The notes under the pieces: generated by a model | Database searches by the model: none | What the model was told of the DNA's origin: nothing | The model's input: the letters and a program-made list of their open reading frames with translations, nothing else | In this document: one piece after another, positions 5,703-38,093 of the stretch | Layout of the letters: every line of letters starts with the position of its first letter | How positions within the stretch are numbered: the first letter of the stretch is position 1 | Source of the DNA: a virus | Length of the DNA: 39,665 bases | Strand: one strand, 5' to 3' | Virus record (IMG/VR): IMGVR_UViG_3300031862_000365 | Location: 1 to 39,665 of that record | Made by a program: the position numbers and the translations under genes

Positions 5703-6420
5703 GCTGACGTGGCGCACGTACTGGCGCTCAGGCCGGGAGGACTTGAAGGCCCGCAATGCGTTGGCGATGCACTATCGGTATCTGGTGATCGACTCTGCCC
5801 GCATCCGGGCTGCGTCTTATCCGAGAAGCCTAACGAGTCAAGACCTCGAAACTTTCGGGGACGAGGGACTCTTGATAGCGATCAAAAAATATGATCCGAA
5901 CCGGCGAGTGGCGTTCACGAGCTACGCCGAGCATCGGATTCGTGGAGCAATTCAGGATGGCATGAGACGCTGGGACCACGTTAGACGGAGGTCGCGGCAA
6001 ATCGAAAGAATGCATAAAAGGACCAGGTCCCAACTGACCCAAACCTTGGGGCGTTGGCCAACGGACGATGAAATGGCCGATGCCCTCGGCAGGGGACCTG
6101 TCCGTTATCGCGTCGAGCGGGATGCCGTGCTTGCGGCAGAGCTGCAGCCATTGGCCGTCGCCGTGTACGGCCAGCAGGATGCCGGCCCGAGACCCGATAG
6201 CGTAATGGAAGGACGCGACACTTGGCAACGCCTCATGCGGGGATGTAGCCGCGTCGAAAGAATCATCCTGACCTGTTACTATTCTCACGGCCTGACCATG
6301 AAGTCGATCGCCAACTTACTGGAGCTGTCGGAGTCGCGTGTCTCCCAGGTGCATGGCCACCTGCTCGCGCGGCTGCGCGAAACCTGGAAAGGAACGGAGC
6401 TATGCCCCTCCCCGCCTTAA
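5629..6420 (+). CDS. Phage-encoded sigma factor, sigma70/FliA-like
   Basis: The 263-aa protein has the layout of a group 3 (FliA/WhiG-type) sigma factor. Region 2 spans about residues 38-118, with NALAMHYRYLV, then DLETFGDEGLLIAIKKYDPN and FTSYAEHRIRGAIQD, the core-binding and -10 recognition helices. A region 3-like segment (LTQTLGRWPTDDEMADALG) is at 136-154. Region 4 at about 200-252 ends in a helix-turn-helix, LTMKSIANLLELSESRVSQVH, for -35 recognition. GAAGGA lies 5 nt before the chosen ATG. It would bind host RNA polymerase core and direct it to phage promoters. Its place inside the packaging/head operon, overlapping the portal gene, is unusual. No FliA-type target promoter could be identified with confidence here. 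Confidence 0.92.
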   Translation: MVKGRQLKALDRGPPPRRLPPAVLRLTWRTYWRSGREDLKARNALAMHYRYLVIDSARIRAASYPRSLTSQDLETFGDEGLLIAIKKYDPNRRVAFTSYAEHRIRGAIQDGMRRWDHVRRRSRQIERMHKRTRSQLTQTLGRWPTDDEMADALGRGPVRYRVERDAVLAAELQPLAVAVYGQQDAGPRPDSVMEGRDTWQRLMRGCSRVERIILTCYYSHGLTMKSIANLLELSESRVSQVHGHLLARLRETWKGTELCPSPP

Positions 6421-15928: not shown

Positions 15929-18900
15929 ATGGGCGAGATTGCAGACATCCTGGATCAGACGGCGACACCCACGGGGGATATCGGGCGCATCCTGGCGGCG
16001 ACCGAAAGGCCGGGTATCGGCGAGATCGGTGACATCTTGGATGCGACGCAACGGCCCGCACCGTCCTTGGGTGAACTCGCCACGAGACCGCCACGCAGCG
16101 CCTACGAGGTCGGCCAAAGCCAACTCCAAACGATGTACCCGCCTGCGCCCCTACCGCGATACCTGACTCTGCCGCCGACCGAGATCGGCAACATCCTGGA
16201 AGCCACGGAAGCGCCGCCGGCACCACAGTTCGGCACGACTGTTCCCGAGCGCATCGTTGGGACAGCGAGGGAAGTGTGGACCGGCTTTGAAGATTTGGCA
16301 CAGAGCGGGTTGGTAGGACTCCTGCGATTGAGTCGCCAGAAGGACGTGGCCGACAGGTGGCAACAACATTTCGAGATTGAAAACCTCAAGAGGGTTCGCG
16401 GACTGCCTGATTTCCCGACCGTAACGAGCGTTCTTCATCAGGCCGGATACCTCGGCGGGGGAATGCTGGCGGGACCTTTGACCATTCCGACGTTTGCGCT
16501 CTCAGGCTTCAGCCGGGGCTACGATGATGCCGCGGCGCATGGGGCCAACGAGAACGCCCGTTGGGAATCGGGATTGCTGAACGCCGGCATCGATGTCGCT
16601 ACGCTCGGCCTCATCCGTCCGATTGCGGCCTTCAGCGGTCCGGCAAAGAACGCGATCGCGACGGTCCTCAAGAACGCGACGGGCGAGGCCCTTCAGTGGG
16701 GCGTGATCGGCGCCATCATGCGTTTCGGCGAGGATGCCGTGGCCCGCATCTTGTACGATCAGAACCGTGAAGCGTGGGATGGCATCCTTGAATCGGCCGG
16801 CGGCGGGGGGATCGCCGGGGCCGTGGTCGGTGCTTGCCGGGCCTTCTTTCACCTGCCGCCCGCTCCGGTCGGTGCTGGGGAGCGGTCAGCAGTCAGCCCA
16901 GTGGAGGTCGACCGCATCGCCGCCGCCCTGGCCCGGTTGTCACCGGAGACCCGCGCCCGCATCGCCGCCATGCCGGAACCCACTCGGACCAGATTCAGGA
17001 ACGAACAGGAACTCTTGGCGGCCCTCTCGGCCGAGAACCTCAGCGCCGAGAGCCGGACGGTGCGGCAACAGGTCCTGGACGAGGCCCGGAAGATGGCCGA
17101 GGCCCCCAGGATGCCCCAGGAGCCGCCCGTCGAACCTCCAAAAACCGCGCCGGAACCCGTAACGGCCCCTAACGTGCCCCCGGAAGCCGCGCCAGAAGCC
17201 CCAGGATTGCGCCCAGCCGTCGCGCAGGGTCCGGTTAGGGTAGAACCTCAGCCGGTGGCCGCGAAGGCCGTAGAGGCTCCGGCGGTGCCGCCTGCCCCGG
17301 TTCCTGCGCCGACCCCGACCGAAGTTCCGCCAGCCGTGCCCGAGAAGGCAACGAAGCGACTCACCAGGAGCCCGAGCCTGAAGGAGGCCAAGGCCGCGGC
17401 CAATGAGTTCGGTCTGATGCCAGCCAAGGTCCAACGGTTCTTGCAGTTCCTGCGCAGGCCGGGCATGACCGTCGAACAGGCGGCAGATCTGACGAGCGTC
17501 CGGCCGGAAGTCGCCGCGGTGTTGGCTGAGCGGTTCAAGCCGGAAGGCGGTAAGACGTATAAGGAGATCGTCAAGGAGGGCGAGAAGCGGCTGACGGAAG
17601 CCGTCGCGGGAGTGCCGAAAGTCGGGAAGCGCCTGAAGAAGGCAGTCGCCATGCCCCCGCCGGCGGAAACTGCGCCAAGTGCGCCAGAAGTGCGCCAGGT
17701 GCGACAACCGGCCGCCGCTGGCAAGGGATTTGCTGTTGGGCAAGAAGTCACGAGCATCGAACACCCGGAGAGGGGCACGGGCACGGTCACGCGCGTTGCG
17801 ACGGCAACCCCGGCGTCGCCGGATCTGTATCAGGTGACGTGGCGGGACAAGAAGAAAGGCTGGTTGCGGTCGGTCGAGATGCGGCAAGCGCCCGCGCCAG
17901 AGGGCAAACAGCCGTGGGAGAAGTTCTACGCAATTTGGCGTCATCCCAGCGACGGCAAATTCCGCATCGTAGACAAACGCAATCCACCTGACTTCCCGTG
18001 GGAGAAGGCGCGGCCGTTCGACACGCCAGAACAGGCCATCGCCTCTGTAGAAGCAAATTGGCAACACTGGGAAAAGACCCGCGCTCAGAGTGTACAGGAA
18101 CAGGCGCGCGAAGCAGAACGTGATCGGCGATTATCAAAACGTCTTGCCAAGGGCGCTGTTGGAACCTATGTGCGGGAACACGACCTCGACCTGGCAGAGA
18201 ATGCAGGAGAAGTTGAAGCAGGCGAGGGCATAGGACGGGTGGTGTGGGAAGACCCCGGCAATACGATAGAGACGAACGAACCTTCCGCCGTCGGTCTCCC
18301 AGGGAGCAAAGATGTCCGCGCCATTCATGTTACGAGCGACGAGGACTACTGGATACGACGTTTAGCCGAAGACTATGGACGTGACAGGAAGAACGCGAAG
18401 CGCCTCACGATTCGCCTTGCGCAAGGCGACATTCTGGCCGACGACGTTCAGTACATGACCGACCCCGATACTGGGCTCAAGGCCGATTCTGCCATTCTCC
18501 TAACGACTCGCAAGACGCTTCGGCGTGGTGTAGATTTTGTCGTGGGCGATGAACCTTGGGCCGACGCCGCGCTTGCGAAACTCGAACGGCCGGGCGGGGA
18601 ACGGGGCGGGACGGCCGCCGTCTCGCCTGTAACGCAGCCTGCGAAGGCAGTTGAGCCGGGGGAACCGGGTTACGTGACGCCGGGGTTGGCGCACGAAGTG
18701 GAACTGATTCGCCGCTGGAAGGGGGCCGGAACCGTCGGTCAACAGGCAGCGCGCCTTGCCCGTGGTCTCCGCGCCGCTGGCGTCACATTCCAGCGAGAGA
18801 ACGCGGGGACGGGTTCGGTGTATTTCCGGGTCGAACTGCCAGAGGGCGAGTCGCTTTCGCTTCGTGTCGCGGACCATGCACAACCTGAGCATGGGGGCGT

Positions 18901-21900
18901 CCGATGGTCGCCCGCGCTGGGAATGGCTACGCGCAAGGGCGCTGCGGATTTCTCGGCAGACCCGGAGACTGGACAGACGTGGCGCGACCTCTTGAAAACT
19001 GCGATTGAAAGAAATGCCCCCGCAAGCCTGGCATCACGTGCGCCCGAGAGCGCGGTGAACATAGAAGGTGTGCCCCGTGGGGCAGAACCTTCATCAGGCG
19101 CGCGTCAAGTGGAATCCGCCGCCCCTGCTGCCGTGCCAGTCGCCCCTGCCGCAGAGGGCAAGCAGCCGTGGGAGATGACCTACGCCGAATACCGCGCCTG
19201 GGCCGCCGAAAATCATCCCAACGAGGCCATACGGCGGTCCGCGCGCTCGCCGAAGTCTCTTGAAAGCGGAACGTCGGCGGTCGCCGATGTCGCTGGCCAA
19301 TGGAACGAGGCTAAACTTCAAGAGAAACTGCGGGCCGACGCCGCGCTTGCGGGCGAGGCGGCACCAACCAAGAGACTCCAGCGGAAGGTGCCCCAGGAAC
19401 CTGTGGCCGCCGAAACTGGGGGCGTTCCCGCCGAACAAGCCTTGATTCCTTTACAGAGACCGCCCACTCTGACGGATTGGCGGACGGCAAAACCGGGCAC
19501 TATCGTGCGAACCGATTTCGCCGACTACGAGGTTCTTCGGAGGCGGATCCGCCCGAAGCAGGAAGCACAAAGGTTGGCAAGGGAGCTGGGTGGCGAAGTT
19601 TGGATTGACGGGCCAGATAACTGGGCAGTCGTTAGAAAAATCCCCAAGGAAGGCCAAGTCGTCGCGCCTGCCCCCACACCAACGCGCGCTGAGCCTGCCC
19701 GCGACCTTCTCGGCAAGCCCGTGTTCGAGAGCAGAACGGGCGAGCAGCGCGCCTTGGGCTTCGAGGAACCGCCCGTCGAGGGTCACCCGGAGGCCCCACG
19801 AGCCGCAGTGGCCGAACCTGACGAATACGGTCTGACTGCCTACGATTACGAACAGGCCGAACGCATCCTCAGCGGCGGCAAGTGGAAACCGAGACCGGCT
19901 GAAACCATTGGGGTGAGGGCGTGGCTGGCAGGAAAAGCGAAACCGTCCGGCCATGAAGTTCTCGGAGCTGGTCTGTCGCCGGCCGATGTTGCCGATGCTG
20001 CGGGGGCTTGGACTACGGCCGAAAAGACCGCAGGGCCCAAGGACCGGGAACTCCGGGCCTGGAACGTGTCTCGGACCACGATGGAGGGCGAGACGGGCGC
20101 CACGCTCCTTGACGACATCGAGGTGGCCAAGGAGCGGGCGAAGAAAAGCATGGGCGGGGGTGCCACACCCGTAGGTCTCGGCCCCGTCTCCGATGTGGTG
20201 GACCTGGGATACCTGTACATCAAGAAGGGCGTGCGCGACTTCGCCACCTGGGCGAAACAGATGGTGACCGACCTGGGCCAGCGCGTCCGGGCTTACTTGC
20301 CCAAGGTCTGGGCCCGGGCGATGCGGTTCTGGCGCGAGGAAACCGGCCAGACGTTGCCCCGCGAACCCGGCGAAGAATCGGCAGGGGAACCGACCCCCGA
20401 AGAAGTCGAGGCGGAACTTCAGGCCGAGGCCGAAGCGGCGCTTGAGAGACAAGGGGAACTGGTCGAACCGCCGCTGGCTGAGAAACCGATGGGAGAACCC
20501 TACGCCGACGCCGCCAGCGCCGGGAAGCGCGTATTGAACCTTCTGCGCAGTTTCAAGGCGGCCGACCTTCCGAAGATGGTAGATCGGTTGAACGCAGCCG
20601 GCGAACGCGACTTGAAGACCGTGCCTGAAGTCGCGAAGGCGTTGGCCGACCTGCGCGAAGCGACGAAGTACAGGAAGTCCGTCGAGGCCGAGGCCAAACC
20701 TCTCATCGCCGAAGCGCCGACGCGGGCCTACACGCCGCTCCTGGACTGGCTGGGGGAGAAGATCGACGCCCGGGCCGGGGCCGACATGGCGACGGAGATC
20801 AAGGAGGCGCTGGCCGGCCGGCCTTACCTGCGGAAGTTCTTCGACTTCACCGGCAAGAGTCGGCCGCGGCCCATCGACGGCGTGATGAGCGAGGCGATGG
20901 AAAGCGCGGACAGCGGTTTCAAAGGCGACGACACCAGCGCCTTCCTCGACCAGATGGTGAAAGAGGCTGACGCCCTGGAAGCTCAGCGCGCCATCGGTGG
21001 CGACGTCGGACAACAAGTCAGGGCGATGGCGGAAGGCAGCCGGGACCCAGGCGAGGTTCGGGCACTCGCCGAAAGGGTTGACCGGGCTGTGGCCCGCGAG
21101 AACGACATGCAGAGGGCGGTCGTCGAGAGCCTCGAACCTCACATCATGGTTCGGCGGGTCGAGAACATCGCCCGGTTGGAAGCGCAGCTGCACGAGGCCA
21201 AAGCCGCAATCGAGACGGAGACGGCCAAGGCCAGGCAGGAAGAGCGGGCCGCCTCAGAAGCCAAATTGCAACAGGTACTTGCGGCGACCCATGAACAAAT
21301 CCGGATCTTTCAGGTCCACGCGAAGATGACCGCAGACGCCCGGATCATGGGTGCTCGGGCGCGCGCGGCCGCGTTCGAGAAGTTGCGGAAGGAGTTCAAG
21401 GCGGCGGTACAAGCCTTGCCGCCCGCCGTCCGCGGCAAGTTGTGGCGGTTCTCCGAAGGCATCGAGCGCCCGGAGCAACTGACGCTTGGCATCGACCGCG
21501 CGCAGCGACTCCTTGGCGAGGAGTTGAAGCGCGGTGCTTACGAGACCGCCCTGAGAACGGCCAAGGTCATTCACAATCATCGGATGGAGTTCGACCCGCA
21601 GGCCGATGCCGAGGCGTTGGTTGAAGCGGAAAAGGTGCTGGCTGGCGGCGCGACGGCGTTCAAGGGCGTCAGTGTCGAGGAGATGCGGGAGATCTCGAAC
21701 CGGCTTCTTGAGACCTGGCACATCCACCAGAACGCCAAGACCCTCTACGCGCTTGAGGGCATGGCGAATGCGGAAGATGCCGCCCGATCGGTGCTGAAAG
21801 ACTTGGCGGATTGGAAACCTGCGGCTGGCGTAGAGGAGCGCGGCCCGGCCCCGGGGACTCCGCACAGGTCCATGCCGAACCGCGTGGTAGACCTCAACAG

Positions 21901-24184
21901 TTACCCGGACTCCTTGATCGAAGGGCATCTCGGGCCGGAAGACGGCGTACTTGAGCGCGTCCTTGTCAGCAACGTCGGAACGAACGTTGCCCATCACTTT
22001 TCGGCGGACTGGTACGCAATCTGGGACCCGATGAACGAAGCGTGCAAGGTAGCCACGGGCGGCACCCTCAAGAAGGAGGCGGCGTTTCGCTGGTTCTCGG
22101 CGCCCCTGACATTCGAGATAGGCGGCGTGAAGGTCAGGGCGGAGCGCGAACAGTGGATGACCCTGCGCGCGGTATTGAAGGATGCCGACGCGACGGGGAA
22201 GTGGCTCAAGAACACGGAATCCGACAACCCCGAACCGTCGACGGCCGTATGGTCCAACCGGCGCGGCAAAGTCGCCTTGGCCTTCAACAACATGGCGGAG
22301 GTTCAAGCGTTCAGTGATGCTTTCGATGCAGCCGAGCCCAAGGCCGCCGCCTACATCGACTCCTGCCTTGCCGCGACGAATGACCCGGCTCGATTTGAGA
22401 AGAGTAATGCCACGCACTTCAGACTGTTCGGGACGTACCTTGAGAAAGTGCCCGGAACCCGGATGGCCACGGAGTATAACGTGGCGGCCGAGAAACAGCG
22501 GGCCGTGCCCGACTTTTCCACGGCGTCTCCGGCCGACATCCTCAAGCACCTGCGTCAGCACTTCGCCCGGTTGCCCGGCGGCCGCGGCATCAGCATGGTC
22601 ATCGGTCGGTTCAACAATGTGCTCCTGCGCGAGGCATGGGAAGATGCCGCATTCAACACCTACGCCCCTGGATTACGGGACGGATGGACGTTGCTTCAGC
22701 AGATGGTGGAACACGGGGCGGGCGAAAAGGAGATCACGCTGAAGGCGTACCTGGGCGAGCGGGTCGGCCAGGAAGTTCCTCGGACTCTCGATAGTCACCT
22801 CAAGTCCATCGCGAAGTATTATGGACTCTCCTATCAGGCGAGACTGGAAGAAGCCGACATTGACCCGGTTGCTCGCCGCTTGCTTTACAATGCGATGGGG
22901 GCGGCGGTTGCGTTGAAGTGGACACCGATTGCCAACCAGATTCCGGCGGTCCTGTTGCCCTGCGCCGACACCAAACCGATGGCTCTCCGAGACCTCTTGG
23001 CGGGAATCATCGAGTTCGCTTCGAGGGCCGGCTGGGCTTGGCAGAAACTGAAACGGTTGCGGTCCGACATCAGATTCAGGGCGGAACTCACGAACCCCGA
23101 AGATTTCATTGCGGCTTCGGAGTCGGCCCCGCGCGGTTACGGTCCCAACCGTGTATGGCGAACGATTAAGAGGGCCGTGCGCTACTCGGGCCGGGGCATG
23201 ATCCGCGTGGATCAGGCCAACCGCATCCTGCATTACTTGGCTGCCCGTCATCAACTGATTCGAGAAGGCAAGTTGTCGGGGGAAGCGTTGGAGCAAAAGG
23301 CCGCCGACATGGCCGCCAGGTGGATGTACCGCGTGGACGCCCCGCTGCATCCGGCCTATGCAACGCCTGTCGGTCGTGCCGCCAGGACGAGCACGCTCAT
23401 TGCCGCTGTCACTCCATTTACGAAAGGGAAACTCGCCAACTTCCAGGTAGTCCTCCGTGCCATCAACGACTATGCCCGCGACGGGGACGCGAAGAAACTG
23501 GCCTACAAACTGAGCATTGCAGGAATCGTGGCGGCGGGCTTCACGGCCATAGGGGTCGCGGGGGCGTACTTCGCTGGCCGCAAGGTCGGCGAAGGTCTCG
23601 GCGGCGTCCCTGGCGACTTCGTAGAGAACGCCCTGGGGAACGTCTACGGCGCCACGGAAGCGATCCGTCTCATCCGGTCGAAGTCCCCTTACGGAGTTCA
23701 GGTATTTTCGAGTCCGCCGGTGGCGGCGGCGGAACGGGTGGGGCGGGGCCTCGTCGGCTTGAGGGTCGCCATCGAGAAGGGCGGCACGGATAAGGCCCTC
23801 GCCGCGGCCTCGGAGATTCTGCGGGGTTCTGCGGCGCTCGCGGGGATCCCGACCGATCAAGCCGTCAACCTGATCCGTTTCGGACGTCGCATCGGCGCCC
23901 CTGGCCATCAACTGGCCCAGTGGCCCGGTCTCAGGATGACCCCGGCCGTGCGCCTCATGGCCGACATCCTGGGGCCGCGCATCCCCAGTCCGCCGGAACC
24001 AAAACGTCTGATGAAAGGCGCCAAGCCGAGGAAACGCTTGCGGCGAAGGCCGGAACGCGGCGATGTGGCGATGTTCCGCCGGCTGACTTATCAGGAGGCC
24101 CAGCGGGTCTATCGGTTGGCGGATGCCGACGAGAAACGCCTCTGGGGAAGCATCCTTGCGAGCAAGGTCAGGAGTGGTCGATAG
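15929..24184 (+). CDS. Giant phage polyvalent protein (2751 aa)
   Basis: One uninterrupted frame of 8.3 kb. From the N-terminus: four short repeats of a G/T-E/D-I-x-x-I-L-x-x-T-x-x-P motif (2-14, 16-28, 31-43, 84-96); a Gly/Ala-rich hydrophobic region (about 170-310); a proline-rich linker (391-472); an SH3-like segment (about 603-654); two GKQPWE modules (about 659 and 1078); a YxFRVE…SLRVADH segment (about 920-998); a helical DLGYLYIKKGVRDFATWAK segment (about 1425); a long coiled coil (about 1746-1830); and a C-terminal region (about 2290-2560) resembling LPD38-type polyvalent domains, with a hydrophobic helix. Proteins of this kind in phages and conjugative elements are thought to enter the cell with the DNA. 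The ribosome site is weak (GGAAA). Confidence 0.85.
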   Translation: MGEIADILDQTATPTGDIGRILAATERPGIGEIGDILDATQRPAPSLGELATRPPRSAYEVGQSQLQTMYPPAPLPRYLTLPPTEIGNILEATEAPPAPQFGTTVPERIVGTAREVWTGFEDLAQSGLVGLLRLSRQKDVADRWQQHFEIENLKRVRGLPDFPTVTSVLHQAGYLGGGMLAGPLTIPTFALSGFSRGYDDAAAHGANENARWESGLLNAGIDVATLGLIRPIAAFSGPAKNAIATVLKNATGEALQWGVIGAIMRFGEDAVARILYDQNREAWDGILESAGGGGIAGAVVGACRAFFHLPPAPVGAGERSAVSPVEVDRIAAALARLSPETRARIAAMPEPTRTRFRNEQELLAALSAENLSAESRTVRQQVLDEARKMAEAPRMPQEPPVEPPKTAPEPVTAPNVPPEAAPEAPGLRPAVAQGPVRVEPQPVAAKAVEAPAVPPAPVPAPTPTEVPPAVPEKATKRLTRSPSLKEAKAAANEFGLMPAKVQRFLQFLRRPGMTVEQAADLTSVRPEVAAVLAERFKPEGGKTYKEIVKEGEKRLTEAVAGVPKVGKRLKKAVAMPPPAETAPSAPEVRQVRQPAAAGKGFAVGQEVTSIEHPERGTGTVTRVATATPASPDLYQVTWRDKKKGWLRSVEMRQAPAPEGKQPWEKFYAIWRHPSDGKFRIVDKRNPPDFPWEKARPFDTPEQAIASVEANWQHWEKTRAQSVQEQAREAERDRRLSKRLAKGAVGTYVREHDLDLAENAGEVEAGEGIGRVVWEDPGNTIETNEPSAVGLPGSKDVRAIHVTSDEDYWIRRLAEDYGRDRKNAKRLTIRLAQGDILADDVQYMTDPDTGLKADSAILLTTRKTLRRGVDFVVGDEPWADAALAKLERPGGERGGTAAVSPVTQPAKAVEPGEPGYVTPGLAHEVELIRRWKGAGTVGQQAARLARGLRAAGVTFQRENAGTGSVYFRVELPEGESLSLRVADHAQPEHGGVRWSPALGMATRKGAADFSADPETGQTWRDLLKTAIERNAPASLASRAPESAVNIEGVPRGAEPSSGARQVESAAPAAVPVAPAAEGKQPWEMTYAEYRAWAAENHPNEAIRRSARSPKSLESGTSAVADVAGQWNEAKLQEKLRADAALAGEAAPTKRLQRKVPQEPVAAETGGVPAEQALIPLQRPPTLTDWRTAKPGTIVRTDFADYEVLRRRIRPKQEAQRLARELGGEVWIDGPDNWAVVRKIPKEGQVVAPAPTPTRAEPARDLLGKPVFESRTGEQRALGFEEPPVEGHPEAPRAAVAEPDEYGLTAYDYEQAERILSGGKWKPRPAETIGVRAWLAGKAKPSGHEVLGAGLSPADVADAAGAWTTAEKTAGPKDRELRAWNVSRTTMEGETGATLLDDIEVAKERAKKSMGGGATPVGLGPVSDVVDLGYLYIKKGVRDFATWAKQMVTDLGQRVRAYLPKVWARAMRFWREETGQTLPREPGEESAGEPTPEEVEAELQAEAEAALERQGELVEPPLAEKPMGEPYADAASAGKRVLNLLRSFKAADLPKMVDRLNAAGERDLKTVPEVAKALADLREATKYRKSVEAEAKPLIAEAPTRAYTPLLDWLGEKIDARAGADMATEIKEALAGRPYLRKFFDFTGKSRPRPIDGVMSEAMESADSGFKGDDTSAFLDQMVKEADALEAQRAIGGDVGQQVRAMAEGSRDPGEVRALAERVDRAVARENDMQRAVVESLEPHIMVRRVENIARLEAQLHEAKAAIETETAKARQEERAASEAKLQQVLAATHEQIRIFQVHAKMTADARIMGARARAAAFEKLRKEFKAAVQALPPAVRGKLWRFSEGIERPEQLTLGIDRAQRLLGEELKRGAYETALRTAKVIHNHRMEFDPQADAEALVEAEKVLAGGATAFKGVSVEEMREISNRLLETWHIHQNAKTLYALEGMANAEDAARSVLKDLADWKPAAGVEERGPAPGTPHRSMPNRVVDLNSYPDSLIEGHLGPEDGVLERVLVSNVGTNVAHHFSADWYAIWDPMNEACKVATGGTLKKEAAFRWFSAPLTFEIGGVKVRAEREQWMTLRAVLKDADATGKWLKNTESDNPEPSTAVWSNRRGKVALAFNNMAEVQAFSDAFDAAEPKAAAYIDSCLAATNDPARFEKSNATHFRLFGTYLEKVPGTRMATEYNVAAEKQRAVPDFSTASPADILKHLRQHFARLPGGRGISMVIGRFNNVLLREAWEDAAFNTYAPGLRDGWTLLQQMVEHGAGEKEITLKAYLGERVGQEVPRTLDSHLKSIAKYYGLSYQARLEEADIDPVARRLLYNAMGAAVALKWTPIANQIPAVLLPCADTKPMALRDLLAGIIEFASRAGWAWQKLKRLRSDIRFRAELTNPEDFIAASESAPRGYGPNRVWRTIKRAVRYSGRGMIRVDQANRILHYLAARHQLIREGKLSGEALEQKAADMAARWMYRVDAPLHPAYATPVGRAARTSTLIAAVTPFTKGKLANFQVVLRAINDYARDGDAKKLAYKLSIAGIVAAGFTAIGVAGAYFAGRKVGEGLGGVPGDFVENALGNVYGATEAIRLIRSKSPYGVQVFSSPPVAAAERVGRGLVGLRVAIEKGGTDKALAAASEILRGSAALAGIPTDQAVNLIRFGRRIGAPGHQLAQWPGLRMTPAVRLMADILGPRIPSPPEPKRLMKGAKPRKRLRRRPERGDVAMFRRLTYQEAQRVYRLADADEKRLWGSILASKVRSGR

Positions 24185-30696: not shown

Positions 30697-31734
30697 ATGG
30701 GTTCTTCATACGACAACCCCAACCCCGAAGGTTCAATGGGCCGCGAAACGGCCGCGCCTCCCATGTTGGTCTCCTGTCTGAACGCAGAGGTCCGACCTGT
30801 CGGCGCACGTAGTAGCGGCCCGCCTGCCAGCCAACAGGCTGTCCAGCCTGAGTTTTTGTTTCGTCCCGCCGAAGGGCCGATAACGCGTGTTACGCCCTCC
30901 ACATTTTCGGACCTTGGGCCGTCGAAGGAATGCACCCGTTGCCACCGACGCAAACCCCTGACCGAGTTCACCATAGACCGGCCGCGCCCTGGCCGGAAGT
31001 ATCCCTGTCACAATAAGGATGGCCGGCACAGTCTCTGCCGCGAGTGTCAAATCGAGATCGTCCACGATTGGAAGAAGAGGAACCCCGAGCGGGCCAGGGA
31101 AACCGCGCTCCGAGCGTCGAACCGCTACGTCGAGAACCATCCCGAGGGCGCCCGCGCCCACAGACTCCTTCGGGCGGCCATCAAGCGCGGCGATCTCATG
31201 CGCGAACCCTGCAAAGCGTGCGGGAGTAAAAGAGGTATACAAGGGCACCACGACGACTATAGTAAACCTCTCGAAGTAACTTGGCTCTGTCACGATTGTC
31301 ACCGTCGTCTGCACCGTCTGCCCGCCCCCTCCGGCCAGCCGGTCGAGAGCATCGCCCATGCGGGCGATCAGAAATCAAGGGGCGACCATGTACATCCAGA
31401 ACTTGAAAATGGCGTGCGGGCACTGGCAGGAGTGGGTATTGACGTGCGCCCCGTCGGTGGGGGCGGTCTACGCGGAGATTCTGCGGACGGAGGCATGCGC
31501 CCGTTGCTTGGCCCGCGAGAGCGCCCAGAAAGTCGGCCGCGACCTGATGAGCGAGTATCACCGGGCACTGTGCCGGCGGAACACCGAGGCAGCAGCGCGG
31601 CCGTTTCCACTCTCCTCGCGCAGACGGCAACCGTCGCTGACGTAACACCTTGCGAATCGTCCAGCGAGCAATCGGCCGCGCCGAGTTCCTGCCCATCGAC
31701 TCTCCCGCGCCCCGAAGGGAGCGCCGCACCATGA
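30697..31734 (+). CDS. HNH-type zinc-binding nuclease-like protein
   Basis: CTGGAGAA precedes the ATG, downstream of a strong promoter. The first 70 residues are Pro/Ser-rich. Then come CxxC pairs at 79/82, 114/117, 172/175 and 198/201 and the segment GHHDDYSKPLEVTWLCHDC followed by HRRLH, which is the core of many phage HNH (His-Me finger) proteins; H184/H185 and H202/H206 are likely metal or catalytic residues. HNH proteins often assist terminase or act as homing nucleases. The frame stays open to 31734, where its stop overlaps the endolysin ATG, but the last 115 residues have atypical composition, and the 85-aa gene is nested there, so the true end is uncertain. Confidence 0.7.
   Translation: MGSSYDNPNPEGSMGRETAAPPMLVSCLNAEVRPVGARSSGPPASQQAVQPEFLFRPAEGPITRVTPSTFSDLGPSKECTRCHRRKPLTEFTIDRPRPGRKYPCHNKDGRHSLCRECQIEIVHDWKKRNPERARETALRASNRYVENHPEGARAHRLLRAAIKRGDLMREPCKACGSKRGIQGHHDDYSKPLEVTWLCHDCHRRLHRLPAPSGQPVESIAHAGDQKSRGDHVHPELENGVRALAGVGIDVRPVGGGGLRGDSADGGMRPLLGPRERPESRPRPDERVSPGTVPAEHRGSSAAVSTLLAQTATVADVTPCESSSEQSAAPSSCPSTLPRPEGSAAP
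31388..31645 (+). CDS. Cys-rich protein (85 aa) nested in the HNH frame
   Basis: AAGGGGCG lies just before the ATG. The product begins MYIQNLKMACGHWQEWVLTC and has cysteines at 10, 20, 37 and 40 (TEACARCLARE), a likely zinc site. It is in a different frame from the HNH protein over its whole length. Third codon positions in this frame are about 85 percent G/C in the first 60 codons, against about half in the HNH frame, which marks this as the genuine coding frame here. The C-terminus is basic (PLSSRRRQPS). Confidence 0.65.
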   Translation: MYIQNLKMACGHWQEWVLTCAPSVGAVYAEILRTEACARCLARESAQKVGRDLMSEYHRALCRRNTEAAARPFPLSSRRRQPSLT

Positions 31735-32624
31735 GCGACGCACGCAAGTGCCTGAAGTGCGGAACTCGAGCCACGGGGTTGAATCCCGGCAGCATCCGTG
31801 ACATTTGCCTTGGGTCGGCCGAGAGGAAGCGCAAGCGCGCGGCGCGGAGATGCGGTCTCCCGAGCAACACGTGGTGGGTCCTTTTCTGGATCATCTTCTG
31901 GATGGTCGCCGGTGTCCTGTGCTATGCGGCCATCTGGTCGATGAACTGGTGGACCAAATCTTCGGCGCGGCAATGCCCCGCCCGGCCCGTGACCCGGGCG
32001 CAAGGCGCGGGCGGGACGTCTGTCCCCCCGGACCCCCGCCCAACCGCGCCGGATACTCAGCCCCGGCGTGGCGGCAGTAGCGACCCCCTCCTACTCTGCG
32101 AAGTCAGCCGCAATCAGCCGATGGGCCAGAGCGCCGGGGCGCTCTTTCGGGCCATTCGTCTTGTCGAAACCGGCAACGCGCCCCACCCGGTTGCTGGAGA
32201 CAATGGGGCGGCGATTGGCCCGTACCAAATCCATCGGTCCTACTGGGTCGACGCCCGGATGCCGGACGGCTCCTACGAGGATTGCCACCGCGCCGAATAT
32301 GCCGAGCGGGTGATGGCCCGGTACTGGCAGCGGTACGCGCCGGAGTGGCGACCGGAAACGCTGGCGCGGTTGCATAACGCAGGGCCGACTAAGTGGCGCG
32401 GCGCCCGGGCGAGAACGTACTGGGAGGATGTGCAACACTACATGAATGAATACGCCCCCCGAGCGATTGGGGTTGACTTACGACATCGCGCGAAGCGCGC
32501 GGCGGCAAGGGCGGTTTCTGGCGGCCGGGGCCGCACCGGGTCGTCAACCTCGCCGGCTTCCGGCCACGACGCGACTGCCCTGGTGGCCTCGGCGGAAGGA
32601 GGATCTATGTCACTGACCCCGTAG
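31731..32624 (+). CDS. Membrane-anchored lysozyme-like endolysin
   Basis: GGGAGCG precedes the ATG, which overlaps the HNH stop. The 297-aa protein has an N-terminal Cys cluster (KCLKCGTRATGLNPGSIRDIC, cysteines 7, 10, 26), then a strong Trp-rich membrane segment at about 46-72, a Pro-rich linker, and a catalytic domain at about 135-240. There, LFRAIRLVETGN carries the putative catalytic Glu146, followed by VAGDNGAAIGPYQIH and LHNAGPTKWRG, motifs of the lysozyme/transglycosylase SLT-type fold found in phage endolysins. A basic low-complexity tail follows. The TM anchor suggests export by membrane insertion. It would cut peptidoglycan at lysis. Confidence 0.8.
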   Translation: MSDARKCLKCGTRATGLNPGSIRDICLGSAERKRKRAARRCGLPSNTWWVLFWIIFWMVAGVLCYAAIWSMNWWTKSSARQCPARPVTRAQGAGGTSVPPDPRPTAPDTQPRRGGSSDPLLLCEVSRNQPMGQSAGALFRAIRLVETGNAPHPVAGDNGAAIGPYQIHRSYWVDARMPDGSYEDCHRAEYAERVMARYWQRYAPEWRPETLARLHNAGPTKWRGARARTYWEDVQHYMNEYAPRAIGVDLRHRAKRAAARAVSGGRGRTGSSTSPASGHDATALVASAEGGSMSLTP

Positions 32625-33241: not shown

Positions 33242-33435
33242 CCGATCCGCCGCAGACCGACCTTGGGCGCGCCCGGGCCGTGGCGGCGATGGTCCGGTGG
33301 AAACACCGCGAGGTGTTGAGTCGGATGCAAAATGCAGTGGGAATCGCCCAGATGGCGAGAGACGAACTGGACGCAGCCCTGGCGCTGTACGAGGCAGTGG
33401 TGCTCGAAGGGCAATGGGAATGGAGGGACTTCTAA
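33238..33435 (+). CDS. Hypothetical small helical protein (65 aa)
   Basis: Starts in an ATGA overlap with the previous gene and ends 13 bases before the nuclease gene. The product is fully helical with heptad-like spacing (ARAVAAMVRWKHREVLSRM, DELDAALALYEAVVLEGQ), likely a short coiled coil. No family is recognised. Confidence 0.6.
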   Translation: MTDPPQTDLGRARAVAAMVRWKHREVLSRMQNAVGIAQMARDELDAALALYEAVVLEGQWEWRDF

Positions 33436-33448
33436 AGGAATATATGAG

Positions 33449-34696
33449 ATGACAGAACCCATTCGCATTTCGCCGTCGAAGTTGGGCCTCGGCTACTTGT
33501 GCCCGAGCGGGATCATCCGAGTGCCCGATGCCGTTTCAAGCGACTCGGCGGCATCGAGGTTCGGGAGGGCAGGGCACAGCGTTCTTCGCTGGTGCGGCGC
33601 ACACGGGGCGACCGAGTTACCGGACCTGGCCCCCTTCCGCGAGCGGTATGTCATCGCCGAGGACCAGGCAACGGATTTCGCCGCAGCCTGCGCGATCGCC
33701 CTGCGGCGATTTCTCGATTGGGCGGCGAGTCTCGCGCCCCAAGCCCAAGCATCACTTGAGTTCGAGACCGAGACGCCTTCCTTGGACATCGCGGCCGAGA
33801 CCCGAACCTTCCTGCTTCAGGGAACGGCCGACGTGGTCGCTTGGGGGGACGAAACGCTCGACGTTCTGGATTACAAACTCGGCCATGTCGAATCAACCGA
33901 TTCTTGGGCGGCTCAAGGGTTGGCATATTTGGCCTGCGGGATGTTCGGATCCGTGCGGGACGAAGACAGCGACAGACAGGCCGAAAGGGAAGCAATCAGG
34001 GAGGGAAGTTCATCGGTGGTCTTCTTCGGGGACGGGTCCCGACAGACGTGGAGGGCCGACCGGGACGAGGTTCACCACTGGCTTGAGGAGTTCCAACGCG
34101 ATGTTCTGAACTACTACGGCCGGTTCTCGCCCGGCGCACACTGCGAACGGTGTGACCGGGCGCTCCTCCCGGAAGGCCATATCCTCGCCTGTCCTCACGC
34201 GCACAAGGAAGTAAGCCTGTTCCTCTCCGCGCTCGGTACGGGGGAACTACTTGCCGTGCGCCCTGACCAAGCCCTCGCCGACGTGTTAGCCGACCGGCTG
34301 CTCCTGGCGCGTCTGGTCGAGCGCCAGGCCAAGGCGTTCGTCGAGCGGGTGCGGCTTGCCGTCCAGGACTCTCCGAACGGCCGATTGATCCTCTCGGATG
34401 GCCGGTATCTCGGGTTCCGGTCCAAGCCCCGCCGCGAGATCCGGCCGCTTCTCGGCCTGCCGATCCTGCTTCAGTTCGCCGACGCCGACACCATCGAGGA
34501 TGCCGTCAAGGTCTCGAAGTCGGCGGCCCTGGACGCGATCAAGGCCAAGATGGAGAAGGACGATCCGAAGCGTTCGCGCGGTTGGAAGGTGGCCCTCGAC
34601 CGCGAAGTCGATAAGCAGTTGGCTGAAGCGAGAGCGTTCAGGGAAACCGAGATCAGGGAGTTGGGGATATACCAAGAGGAAGGGACCGAAGCATAG
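33449..34696 (+). CDS. PD-(D/E)XK nuclease, RecB/Cas4-like, possible Fe-S cluster
   Basis: AAAGGAA precedes the ATG. The 415-aa protein carries the nuclease signature: H43 in GRAGHSVLRW, D128 in GTADVVAW, D141-x-K143 in LDVLDYKLG, and Q156..Y160 in QGLAYLA. This is the RecB/AddB/Cas4-like core. One N-terminal cysteine (C18, YLCPSG) and three C-terminal ones (C232, C235, C248, HCERC…AC) mirror the 4Fe-4S arrangement of Cas4 and AddB. The rest is a helical C-terminal domain. Next to the annealase-type gene it probably acts as the exonuclease of a two-component recombination system. Confidence 0.8.
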   Translation: MTEPIRISPSKLGLGYLCPSGIIRVPDAVSSDSAASRFGRAGHSVLRWCGAHGATELPDLAPFRERYVIAEDQATDFAAACAIALRRFLDWAASLAPQAQASLEFETETPSLDIAAETRTFLLQGTADVVAWGDETLDVLDYKLGHVESTDSWAAQGLAYLACGMFGSVRDEDSDRQAEREAIREGSSSVVFFGDGSRQTWRADRDEVHHWLEEFQRDVLNYYGRFSPGAHCERCDRALLPEGHILACPHAHKEVSLFLSALGTGELLAVRPDQALADVLADRLLLARLVERQAKAFVERVRLAVQDSPNGRLILSDGRYLGFRSKPRREIRPLLGLPILLQFADADTIEDAVKVSKSAALDAIKAKMEKDDPKRSRGWKVALDREVDKQLAEARAFRETEIRELGIYQEEGTEA

Positions 34697-34714: not shown

Positions 34715-36001
34715 ATGACACAGACACAGACGGAGTACGACGGCGCGCCCTTGCCGGAGGAACCGCCTCCGGACTACGAGGATCAGAAGCATCGCTGTGC
34801 CAAGCGACCGGAGTTGGCCCTGGCACCCCTGGCGCCTGAACCCAGCGGCATGATGCAGGTCGCCGCGACGCGCGCGGCCCAGGAGGTGCAGGCCGCTATG
34901 GTGATCGCCAAGAAGTTCCCGCGCGACGAGACCGTGGCCTTCCAGCGCATCATCCGGGCCTGCCACAGGAAGTCGCTCGCCGAAGAGGCGGTCTACGCCT
35001 ATCCGCGCGGGAACACGACGGTCTCCGGGCCGAGTATCCGCATGGCCGAGGTCCTCGCGCTGAACTGGGGCAACATCCATTTCGGCATCCACGAGTTGGA
35101 ACGGCGCGAAGGCGAATCCTCCGTGCTGGCCTTCGCCTGGGACCTGGAGACGAACACCCGCCAGAGCAAGGTGTTTACGGTACCCCACGAGCGCCGCGTC
35201 GGCAAGGGCAGCCGCTTCCGCGTCGATCAACTGACCGATCCGCGGGACATCTATGAGATGACCGCCAACCAGGGGGCCCGCCGCCTGCGGGCGTGCATCC
35301 TGGGGGTGATCCCCGGCGATGTGGTCGAGGCGGCCGTGGTCGAGTGCGAGAAAACGATGGCCGGGAACAACGCGGAACCGCTCATCGACCGCGCCCGGAA
35401 GATGCTGGTGGCCTTCGAGGGGTTCGGCGTCACCAAGGACCAAATCGAAGGACGACTTGGACACAAGGTCGAGGTCCTAGCCGAGGTCGAACTGGTCGGC
35501 CTGCGGAAGGTCTACGCGGCGATCCAGGACAACTTCGCCGCCAAGGAGGACTTTTTCCCCGCCACCGGGCCGGCGGAAGGGAAGGTCGGCGGCAAGACGC
35601 CCGCGGAGCCGTTCTTCGGCGGTCTGACGAAGCCCAACGGCCAAGGCGAGTCGGCGACCAAGAGGGCGGGGCCCGTGCCGACCCAGACGGCCCCGGCGGC
35701 GACCCGACCGCCGTCCCCCGCCGACCCCGCCTCTTCCCCCCTACCCGGCGACGGCCAATACGATCGGCTGATGGCGGAGTGTAAGGCGATCTGTTGGGCT
35801 GCGCGGCAGAGCAATGCGAAAAAGGCCAAGGAGTTCTTGGCCCATCAGATGGCGACCCATGGTATCGGCGTCGGCGCCGCGGTCGCCGACGACCTGGCCA
35901 TGGTCCAGGCCATGCGGAAGACCTTGGGCGGCTTGGCGGAGAACCTGGGGCTGGACTGGGCATGCCACATGCCCGATGGGCCGAGTCCCGCGAAACTGTG
36001 A
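34715..36001 (+). CDS. Putative single-strand annealing recombinase
   Basis: AAGGAGAA precedes the ATG. The conserved central region (about 57-215) contains FQRIIRACHRKSLAEEAVYAY, then TVSGPSIRMAEVLALNWGNI, AWDLETNTRQSKVFTVPH and LTDPRDIYEMTANQGARRLR with GVIPGDVVEAA. I recall this pattern from phage recombination loci, where it accompanies exonucleases as a RecT/Erf-like annealing protein; the exact family name is not certain. A proline-rich linker (about 325-350) leads to a C-terminal helical domain. The companion PD-(D/E)XK nuclease upstream supports a Red-like pair. Confidence 0.7.
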   Translation: MTQTQTEYDGAPLPEEPPPDYEDQKHRCAKRPELALAPLAPEPSGMMQVAATRAAQEVQAAMVIAKKFPRDETVAFQRIIRACHRKSLAEEAVYAYPRGNTTVSGPSIRMAEVLALNWGNIHFGIHELERREGESSVLAFAWDLETNTRQSKVFTVPHERRVGKGSRFRVDQLTDPRDIYEMTANQGARRLRACILGVIPGDVVEAAVVECEKTMAGNNAEPLIDRARKMLVAFEGFGVTKDQIEGRLGHKVEVLAEVELVGLRKVYAAIQDNFAAKEDFFPATGPAEGKVGGKTPAEPFFGGLTKPNGQGESATKRAGPVPTQTAPAATRPPSPADPASSPLPGDGQYDRLMAECKAICWAARQSNAKKAKEFLAHQMATHGIGVGAAVADDLAMVQAMRKTLGGLAENLGLDWACHMPDGPSPAKL

Positions 36002-36059
36002 AAGAAGCGCATTATGGCTTATTACGATGTACTTTCCGATCAAGTTTCCAGTTTTTCGT

Positions 36060-36122
36060 TACGCAGGAGCGGCGGAGCCGCCAAGGGCCGGTCCAGGCAG
36101 AAGACCGGCGCTTCCCGGCGCC
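36060..36122 (+). promoter_or_regulatory. Overlapping GC hairpins before the replication gene
   Basis: The 136-bp gap between the annealase and replication genes contains GGCGG-AG-CCGCC (36071-36082), GCCGGTC (36087-36093) pairing with GACCGGC (36103-36109), and GGCGC (36107-36111) pairing with GCGCC (36118-36122). The last two stems share bases and exclude each other, a layout seen in attenuators. No U-run is present. Regulation is only inferred. Confidence 0.35.
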
Positions 36123-36137
36123 GACACGAGGCCGTGG

Positions 36138-36989
36138 ATGAAATCTGACGCTATCCATCATCGCAAAGTGACCTTGTTGGCGGAGATGTTGGGCATCCCC
36201 CATGCGCAGGCCCTCGGCACCGTGACGTCGCTCTTCGCTTGGGCGGCGAAGGATGTGCCTGACGGTGCTGTTGGCATCTACACGGATGCCCAGATTGCCG
36301 AGGCTTGCCTTTGGCACGGGCGGCCGGGGAGGCTCATCGAGGGATTGCTGGACTGCTTTGTCCCGAGCAAACACGAGGCCGGATTTCTGCAGCGCCATCC
36401 GGTCTTCAGACTGGTGATCCACGACTGGCGCGAGCACGTGGAAAACTACGTCCACGAGCGGCTGGAGCGCCAGGGCCTTACGTTTTGGGATGGAGTTAAA
36501 CCCCGCAACCGCAAGCACTTACCTGCGTCAGTATTACGGACCCTGACAACGACAGTGACAATGACAACGCCGTTGACAGCGCCAAAGACTGTTGTTGTTA
36601 CGCGGCGCCCCTGCGCCGGGGGACCCAACAGACAGAACAAACAATATACTTCTGCGCATAGAAAGTCTGTTGTAACAGAGTCTGTTGTTGTGAACAGAGG
36701 ATGCGCGCAACGCCAAGAACTTGTGTGTTCTGTTGACGGCAAAAAGGACAACGGAAAGGCGAGGGCAAAGGTTCTCGAACTGCTGAAAGAGTTTGGGGGC
36801 AACATCTCGCGCGGCCGGGCGGTCTTTCTTCTTCAGGCGGCAGGTTGGAGGGGCGACGAGGCGTTGGCGGTCATGCGCGAGCACAAGCCCGAACGGGTGT
36901 TCGCGTGCGTGCGGTACGCGGTCAAGAAGTCCAAACGCAATCTCGCCGGTATGGTCCGGCGAGCGCTGGAACAAGGTTGGACTCTCTAA
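36138..36989 (+). CDS. Replication initiator-like protein, HTH N-terminus
   Basis: The start MKSDAIHHRK is chosen for GAGG seven bases upstream and for its match to a frequent phage replication-protein start (charged/His-rich, then KxxxLAExLG). Residues 10-105 look like a winged-helix domain (VTLLAEMLGIPHAQALGTV, GIYTDAQIAEACLWHGRPGR, RLVIHDWREHVENYV). Residues about 130-205 are a Thr/Val/Asn/Gln-rich linker whose DNA holds repeated TCTGTT/AACAGA sites. The C-terminal 80 residues (ARAKVLELLKEFGGNISRGR, REHKPERVFACVRYAVKK) are a helical domain. The design, DNA-binding head, linker encoding iterons, and C-terminal domain, recalls lambda O. The replication role is inferred. Confidence 0.6.
   Translation: MKSDAIHHRKVTLLAEMLGIPHAQALGTVTSLFAWAAKDVPDGAVGIYTDAQIAEACLWHGRPGRLIEGLLDCFVPSKHEAGFLQRHPVFRLVIHDWREHVENYVHERLERQGLTFWDGVKPRNRKHLPASVLRTLTTTVTMTTPLTAPKTVVVTRRPCAGGPNRQNKQYTSAHRKSVVTESVVVNRGCAQRQELVCSVDGKKDNGKARAKVLELLKEFGGNISRGRAVFLLQAAGWRGDEALAVMREHKPERVFACVRYAVKKSKRNLAGMVRRALEQGWTL
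36544..36734 (+). other. Iteron-like repeats, putative replication origin
   Basis: Inside the replication-gene linker, TGACA occurs at 36544, 36556, 36562 and 36574 (approximately), then TCTGTT or its complement AACAGA at 36627, 36666, 36674, 36681, 36693 and 36729. Two of these form inverted pairs: TCTGTT-GT-AACAGA (36666-36679) and TCTGTT-GTTGTG-AACAGA (36681-36698). The stretch is less GC-rich than its surroundings. Such clustered sites fit binding sites for the encoded initiator. Confidence 0.5.
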
Positions 36990-37002
36990 AAGGAGAAGGA
37001 AC

Positions 37003-37677
37003 ATGACAAAACAAAAGGAGCGGCCGGCGGTACCCGTCATTCCCCGGAATGCGGGCGAAGAAGATGTGTTCAAACTTCGCGCCATCACCGAGCAGCACGC
37101 TATGATCGTAAAAGCGAGCAAGGTGTTGACGTGTTGCCAACTCGAGGAAGCCGCCAAGCTCCAAAGCTACAAAGAGGCCAAGGCGCGCAGCGAAGACGCC
37201 GAGGAGAGCCTCGACGGCGCGATCATGGTCCTGGTGGATCTGTGCGGCGACGACGAGTTGCCCCTGCAGAAGGCCGCGAGGGACGGGAATGTTCAGGGGC
37301 GGGCACCGGGAGATGAGTCTTGGAGAAACTGGCCCCTCGCCAGTTTGGGCGGCAAACCGGAACTGTCGGTCGGCGATGTGGAGAAGTTTGCCGCGGCGGG
37401 CATCAAAACCGTCGGCGACCTTGCCGACTGGGAGGCCAAACACTCGAACCATGTCGGTGTTAAGGGCGCCGGAGCCGCGACGTGGGGCAGGGTGGCCGAT
37501 TCGATGGCGGGGTTCTGGGCCAGGTGGAACGCAGAGCCTGGCCGCAAGGCACAACAGGCGGCGGAGGTTGCCGCATGCAATGCGGTTGCAACCACCCCGC
37601 CTGCCAAGCCGGACGGTGGAGCGAAGAAGGCGTTGGTCGGCGGTCTCGACGACGTGAAAGGAGGCCGCCAAGAATGA
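37003..37677 (+). CDS. HhH-containing protein (224 aa)
   Basis: AAAGGAGAAGGAA precedes the ATG. Residues 20-90 form a helical, heptad-rich region (EQHAMIVKASKVLTCCQLEE, SYKEAKARSEDAEESLDGAIM). Residues about 120-178 contain a helix-hairpin-helix-like part (SVGDVEKFAAAGIKTVGDLA, VKGAGAATWGRVADSM), common in DNA-binding proteins. An Ala/Pro-rich tail follows. It is coupled by ATGA overlap to the RusA gene, so it may be a partner in branched-DNA processing. Confidence 0.65.
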   Translation: MTKQKERPAVPVIPRNAGEEDVFKLRAITEQHAMIVKASKVLTCCQLEEAAKLQSYKEAKARSEDAEESLDGAIMVLVDLCGDDELPLQKAARDGNVQGRAPGDESWRNWPLASLGGKPELSVGDVEKFAAAGIKTVGDLADWEAKHSNHVGVKGAGAATWGRVADSMAGFWARWNAEPGRKAQQAAEVAACNAVATTPPAKPDGGAKKALVGGLDDVKGGRQE

Positions 37678-38093
37678 TCGTCTTGCGGGTTGAGGGCGTC
37701 CCGAAGGCCCAACCTCGCGCGAGAGCTCGGCGGTCGGGCAAACACGCGGCAGTCTACGATCCTGGTACGGCTGAGGGTTGGAAGGCGCTCGTTGCCGCTG
37801 CCGCCATGCCGCACCGACCGCCGGTCCCTTGGGATGGTCCGATCCAGGTGGACATAGACTTCTTCATGCCGCGCCCAAAGGCGCTGATGCGGAGCAAGGA
37901 TTCAGAGGGGTTGATACCTTGCTGGAAGCGTCCCGATCGGGACAATCTCGACAAAGCGATTCTGGACATCCTGACGCAGATCGGGATGTGGCGCGACGAT
38001 TGCCAAGTCTGCGGCGGCTACATCCGCAAGTGGTATCACGGGAAGACGGGTCGGCCGGGTGCCGTGGTCAAGATCGCACAACTCACGGTCTGA
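37674..38093 (+). CDS. rusA: RusA-family Holliday junction resolvase
   Basis: The 139-aa protein has the RusA signature RPDRDNLDKAILDIL (residues 87-101) followed by MWRDDCQV (105-112). Asp88, Asp90 and one of Asp108/109 match the catalytic aspartates of the family, and Lys94 the conserved lysine. The N-terminus (VEGVPKAQPRARA) is also typical. RusA dimers cut Holliday junctions and other branches formed during phage replication and recombination, before packaging. It starts in an ATGA overlap with the HhH gene, and length is normal for the family. Confidence 0.93.
   Translation: MIVLRVEGVPKAQPRARARRSGKHAAVYDPGTAEGWKALVAAAAMPHRPPVPWDGPIQVDIDFFMPRPKALMRSKDSEGLIPCWKRPDRDNLDKAILDILTQIGMWRDDCQVCGGYIRKWYHGKTGRPGAVVKIAQLTV

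Follow-up and report, generated by a model that had tools for sequence, protein, structure and literature searches.

Why should a phage gene carry a dense cluster of short DNA repeats in its interior? The question is raised by a linear viral record of 39,665 bp from IMG/VR, which may be incomplete and is hereafter called the window. A sequence-only reading had taken repeats in the gene of a 283-residue protein for the iterons of a replication origin. We consider that the segment from 36531 to 36743 is probably (at roughly 85%) the phage replication origin, embedded in the linker-coding part of the initiator gene and bound by the N-domain of its own product, as judged from sequence comparisons.

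The initiator gene and its neighbours

The gene, its parts and the recognised genes around it are as follows.

33332-34696, plus strand: PD-(D/E)XK / phage exonuclease gene (Pfam PDDEXK_1, 1e-6; phrog_69 exonuclease, 5e-9)
34715-36001, plus strand: phrog_3657 gene, unknown function (E=2e-98)
36138-36989, plus strand: replication initiator gene, 283 residues, ATG start, phrog_9474 match
36138-36500, plus strand: putative winged-helix N-domain, residues 1-121, AlphaFold2 pLDDT mostly above 90
36531-36743, plus strand: linker-coding DNA, residues 132-202, predicted to be disordered, candidate origin
36750-36986, plus strand: C-domain made of five helices (pLDDT about 85-92), about residues 205-283
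37674-38093, plus strand: RusA-like Holliday junction resolvase gene, start inferred (Pfam RusA, 2e-23)

Residues 5-107 match the replication initiation proteins of phrog_9474 (E=8e-12), and several distant phage relatives found by tblastn are annotated as replication initiation proteins. The N-domain, modelled with AlphaFold2 on a 69-row alignment, consists of helices and a two-strand wing in an order that fits a winged helix. It features the wing motif IHDWxEH, of which H95 and D96 are invariant and W97 nearly invariant in alignments. Structural matches to the winged helices of RuvB and MarR are weak (Z about 4; VIA). A Foldseek search of the PDB gave no match below E 0.001, a sequence-profile search for solved structures gave none, and Pfam, including its lambda O-type model, assigned no family to the 283-residue protein at E up to 1. 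The pLDDT drops below 50 over the repeat region, and the predicted disordered linker falls almost exactly on the repeats. The earlier reading had placed the sites in the linker-coding part of a helix-turn-helix protein; in the model, the linker is predicted to be disordered and lies between a putative winged-helix N-domain and a C-domain.

The exonuclease-like, phrog_3657 and RusA genes around the initiator constitute a recombination/replication module. The gene that follows the initiator (37003-37677) has no Pfam or PHROG match, and none of the window genes searched was recognised as encoding a helicase, a helicase loader or a polymerase. Elsewhere in the window, the product of 5566-6420 has a sigma-factor-like match to phrog_351 (E=1e-18), a 2751-residue open reading frame (15929-24184) has no PHROG match, and 31650-32624 shows a weak match to Destabilase (lysozyme-type; E=4e-6) and is possibly a lysis gene.

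A repeat cluster in the linker-coding DNA

The DNA elements found within the linker-coding segment are listed below.

36541-36588, plus strand: degenerate array of eight NNNGAC hexamers, two of them deviating, containing the TGACA words
36544, 36556, 36562 and 36574 (starts): TGACA words
36589-36594, minus strand: partial site CTGTTG (CAACAG, lacking the last A)
36603-36618, no strand: GC-rich inverted repeat CGGCGC/GCGCCG
36625-36687, no strand: least stable duplex within the gene, enclosing sites 1 to 4, a candidate unwinding element
36626-36632, plus strand: iteron site 1, CAACAGA (AACAGA starts at 36627)
36666-36672, minus strand: iteron site 2, TCTGTTG, forming the left arm of a 14-bp palindrome
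36674-36679, plus strand: iteron site 3, AACAGA
36681-36687, minus strand: iteron site 4, TCTGTTG
36693-36698, plus strand: iteron site 5, AACAGA
36729-36735, minus strand: iteron site 6, TCTGTTG

The sequence-only reading had described six TCTGTT/AACAGA sites with two close inverted pairs, together with several TGACA repeats, and all were found in place: 108 bp (36627-36734) hold the six exact sites, and four TGACA words lie just upstream. The close pairs are TCTGTT-GT-AACAGA (36666-36679) and TCTGTT-GTTGTG-AACAGA (36681-36698), and AACAGA-G-TCTGTT (36674-36686) forms an outward pair. Start-to-start spacings of the six sites (39, 8, 7, 12 and 36 bp) lack the 11-bp phasing seen in L131, a relative described below.

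AACAGA/TCTGTT occurs 13 times in the 39,665 bp, seven times outside the cluster, and is the sole canonical 6-mer of the whole window to reach at least six copies per ~114 bp; this cluster is the only one detected. In 2000 dinucleotide shuffles of 36520-36760, the word reached at most three copies and any 6-mer at most five. A stricter null was obtained by permuting synonymous codons within the gene, which keeps both protein and codon usage. Against it, and with P values that refer to a single gene, the linker is in excess on all three counts: its commonest word has six copies (P=0.001), 40 direct 6-mer pairs stand against 9.2 (P<0.001) and 22 inverted pairs against 9.6 (P=0.006). Neither the N- nor the C-terminal part of the gene shows a comparable excess. 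GC content by codon position shifts from.66/.40/.74 in the N-domain to.54/.53/.51 in the linker.

The NNNGAC array is periodic against the same null at lags 6 (P=0.002) and 12 (P=0.004), the remaining lags not being significant, and the TGACA words seem to belong to this period-6 array rather than to form a second iteron. The 30-mers starting at 36625-36658 are among the least stable 0.25% of the window, which has several weaker spots elsewhere. The GC-rich inverted repeat is not significant alone (synonymous null P=0.21). A conserved GC hairpin after the array was considered and set aside, being weak in the family (23/89 versus 11 expected) and not significant in the window copy. No DnaA box occurs in 36000-37100. 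A minimum of GC skew at 36.6 kb had been suggested as a check, and the cumulative skew has none there; this test is weak because the record is linear and its recognised genes all lie on one strand.

Linker repeats in the family of relatives

A family set of 144 non-redundant genes, including that of the window, was assembled from IMG/VR and bacterial genome scans, and 112 genes of the family were subjected to the synonymous-null repeat test. Their linkers hold 47.6 direct 7-mer pairs versus 7.5 expected and 9.4 inverted 7-mer pairs versus 3.5 expected, while the N and C parts stay close to expectation. A word with at least four copies is present in 79/112 linkers, compared with 4/112 N parts and 4/112 C parts.

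Two repeat classes recur. Iterons are approximately 7-11 bp long, often spaced by 10-11 bp, and mostly unrelated in sequence between lineages. Arrays are tandem repeats of 5 or 6 bp, most of them anchored by CC, with a coding strand that is T-poor on average; for instance, CCAGAG, CCAAG, CCTAA and CCAAA tandems follow the iterons in the linkers of L002, L015, L026, L027, L077 and others, and the encoded peptides are PEPE, SQSQ, NQTKP and similar. Where both classes occur, iterons lie 5' of the array in 57/65 genes. The window differs from most of the family in its unphased sites of mixed orientation, in its degenerate array and in the reversed order, with the array on the 5' side and the iterons 3'. 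The NNNGAC array is a possible counterpart of the better-preserved CC-anchored T-poor tandems of the relatives.

No relative closer than ~44% identity was found. Close relatives were also sought through the neighbouring phrog_3657 gene, and the initiator lay within the fetched DNA at only 1/29 loci. Relatives that keep the protein and not the repeats had been named as grounds for refutation: distant relatives do lack the window's own repeat sequence, but most have repeats of their own in the same place. This outcome does not discriminate, because own repeats at the same place are expected if initiator and site co-evolve.

Sharing of the iteron word rises with N-domain identity, from <1% of pairs at 25-35% identity to 18% above 60%. 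This coupling was matched in 0/5000 permutations and holds in pairs below 50% identity, which speaks for the N-domain as the part that recognises the iterons; common descent of the linker DNA can contribute to sharing at high identity.

Some family members carry an insert after the N-domain. In L029 (3001-3972), L049 (1590-2735) and L054 (2989-4224), a T5orf172/MUG113 domain, which we take to be GIY-YIG-like, is inserted there, beside the presumed origin; in L058 and L060, the insert in this position is rich in Cys, resembles HNH and has no Pfam match.

The word CAACAGA in two initiator families

Among the 144 linkers, 139 lack any copy of CAACAGA, and only those of the window and L131 contain it three times or more. 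The L131 N-domain is ~43% identical to that of the window, which ranks it first or second among the relatives, according to the stretch that is aligned. This match was noticed post hoc among many relatives, yet L131 is one of the two nearest of 143; the other, L008, has a different iteron word. The L131 linker holds seven exact and nine near-exact copies, all in direct orientation, mostly at 11-bp phasing and in all three frames. L132, a natural variant of L131, has an identical N-domain protein and nine amino-acid changes in the linker. All nine cores are kept, and cores change at the fifth base only: 0/54 other core positions differ, versus 16/141 remaining positions (P=0.007).

A scan of IMG/VR for three phased copies of CAACAGA returned 47 loci, several of which are near copies of one another, and 36 lie in phage initiator reading frames; in a control scan with the reversed word, the figure was 3/25. 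Three of the 36 belong to the L131 group and 33 are DnaD-like, a family whose HMM was built from these same loci and to which PHROG independently assigns 7/7 members tested. Profile comparison of the N-domains of the window family and the DnaD-like family revealed no significant homology. The DnaD-like linkers of L222-L268 carry CAACAGA at 11-bp phasing, so that one site is found in two initiator families. The double palindrome of the window type has 0 matches in IMG/VR.

Selection on the DNA of the linker

Because no closer relative was found in which the window sites could be set against synonymous change, the L131 comparison stands in for the window. Across ten close pairs of relatives, synonymous and non-synonymous codon changes number 79:10 in the N part, 25:34 in the linker and 100:66 in the C part. 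Synonymous changes per codon are.074,.036 and.084, respectively (P=0.0009 and 3e-5), the linker value being approximately half that of either flanking part. The claim that DNA, not protein, is under selection in the linker is supported by the excess over the synonymous null and by a synonymous change that is reduced while non-synonymous change is raised.

Codon choice in the arrays bears on the same point. Proline is encoded by CCA in 137/140 codons of the Pro-Glu arrays, versus 75/396 elsewhere in the same 19 genes. Because arrays were chosen for their periodicity, some of the codon uniformity inside a single array follows from that choice, but use of the same CCA codon across all genes does not. 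The CCAGAG unit is read in the Pro-Glu frame in most genes and in the Gln-Ser frame in three. From their strict CCA-GAG codons and several reading frames, the 5/6-mer arrays of the relatives look selected as DNA.

A probable origin within the initiator gene and its alternatives

The sites could instead be operators, through which the protein or another helix-turn-helix regulator controls transcription through its own gene. The 14- and 18-bp palindromic pairs do resemble dimer operators, and the N-domain weakly matches MarR-type winged-helix regulators. In most relatives, however, the repeats lie within the linker, distant from the gene start; the family is annotated as replication initiation proteins, and the same layout is an origin in lambda O and SPP1 gp38. 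We regard control of transcription as an unlikely account of the sites, though autoregulation could exist alongside origin function. Functionless repeats, gained by slippage and duplication in an unconstrained linker, would suit short repeats in a predicted disordered segment whose protein changes freely. Such an origin of the repeats is very unlikely, given copies in both orientations at irregular spacing, the reduced synonymous change in relatives' linkers, the conserved L131/L132 cores, the recurrence of the word in a second initiator family and an iteron word that tracks the N-domain.

Least probable of those weighed here is selection for an RNA structure in the mRNA, acting in translation control or antisense interaction. 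Compared with shuffled versions, the strand does fold better (RNA z -2.95, DNA z -4.4), but inverted copies raise folding energy by construction, and the pair at 36666-36679 leaves a 2-nt loop that makes full hairpin closure impossible. In L131, all copies of the word are direct, so that a stem is not what the two genes have in common.

The preferred reading, a replication origin in the linker-coding DNA, draws on what sequence data show: a repeat cluster that is denser than coding constraint requires and lies on a predicted disordered linker, the occurrence of CAACAGA as iterons in L131 and in a second phage initiator family, and the coupling of iteron word to N-domain across relatives. Binding, melting and helicase recruitment, along with firing and timing, we infer as follows. 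The putative winged-helix N-domain of the 283-residue product would bind the CAACAGA/TCTGTTG iterons, wrap or bend the origin DNA and, once bound, help melt the weak duplex at 36625-36687; the C-domain would contact and recruit the host replicative helicase or its loader.

Comparison with known origins

In lambda, the origin lies within the initiator gene O (PMC7466680), and in SPP1, gp38 binds direct repeats in its own gene, beside an AT-rich unwinding element (PMC6316719). When subjected to the same synonymous test, lambda O, a proven intragenic origin with annotated iterons that served as positive control, shows a repeat signal in the linker and none in the C part, in line with the lambda-O-like design suggested earlier. 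The window resembles lambda in having repeated sites, here putative binding sites of the initiator, midway along the initiator gene, and a weak duplex nearby. Lambda features 18-bp iterons at 20-24-bp spacing and an AT-rich tract, whereas the window features 7-bp cores of mixed orientation and a 6-mer array and, unlike lambda, has no P-like loader found adjoining the initiator. SPP1 oriL likewise has repeats inside its own initiator gene 38, but SPP1 also has oriR as another origin and encodes a loader and a helicase of its own, whereas a single site cluster was found in the window; SPP1 is absent from the tblastn matches of the window protein.

Homologous N-domains (28-37% identity) are found in the phrog_9474 proteins of Microcystis phages Mae-JY24 and Mwe-Yong1318-1, Faecalibacterium phage FP_Lagaffe, Paenibacillus phage Harrison and Roseburia phage Shimadzu, each examined protein having its own linker repeats. 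They differ from the window in their iteron words and C-domains, and in the family as a whole the iterons lie mostly 5' of a clear tandem array. The DnaD-like initiators or helicase loaders (phrog_2514, phrog_186) share CAACAGA in the linker (33 loci) but differ in their direct phased copies and in an N-domain that is not detectably homologous. In the open-licence papers searched, intragenic origins are described in lambdoid phages and SPP1, and no account of linker origins in the phrog_9474 family was found. The best reading is that the window origin joins the known intragenic design of lambda O and SPP1 gene 38.

The T-poor 5/6-mer array common to the relatives is the least understood part. 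These arrays occupy the position of lambda's AT-rich tract but are not AT-rich, and a role as an AT-weak unwinding element was rejected, the array duplex being no weaker than the gene mean. Primase trinucleotides (CTG, CTA and CCC; PMC5204125) were also considered as a rationale; several units fit by eye, but not all. A tentative and rather doubtful proposal is that the second origin element of the family is a strand-biased, T-poor tandem array of 5- or 6-bp units, selected as DNA in any frame, rather than an AT-rich tract, and that the window retains a remnant of it, the degenerate NNNGAC array, in reversed order. Such an array might serve as a strip onto which a single-stranded-DNA-binding initiator, a helicase loader or a primase is loaded.

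Implications

The analysis locates the probable origin of an uncultured phage by sequence alone, and indicates that a large family of environmental phage initiators carries its origin in the linker. If so, metagenomic sequence could yield an origin together with the specificity of its initiator. Since iteron word and N-domain are coupled, the way in which these proteins recognise DNA lends itself to direct testing; the 5/6-mer arrays, for their part, pose the problem of how GC-rich origins open without an AT-rich tract.
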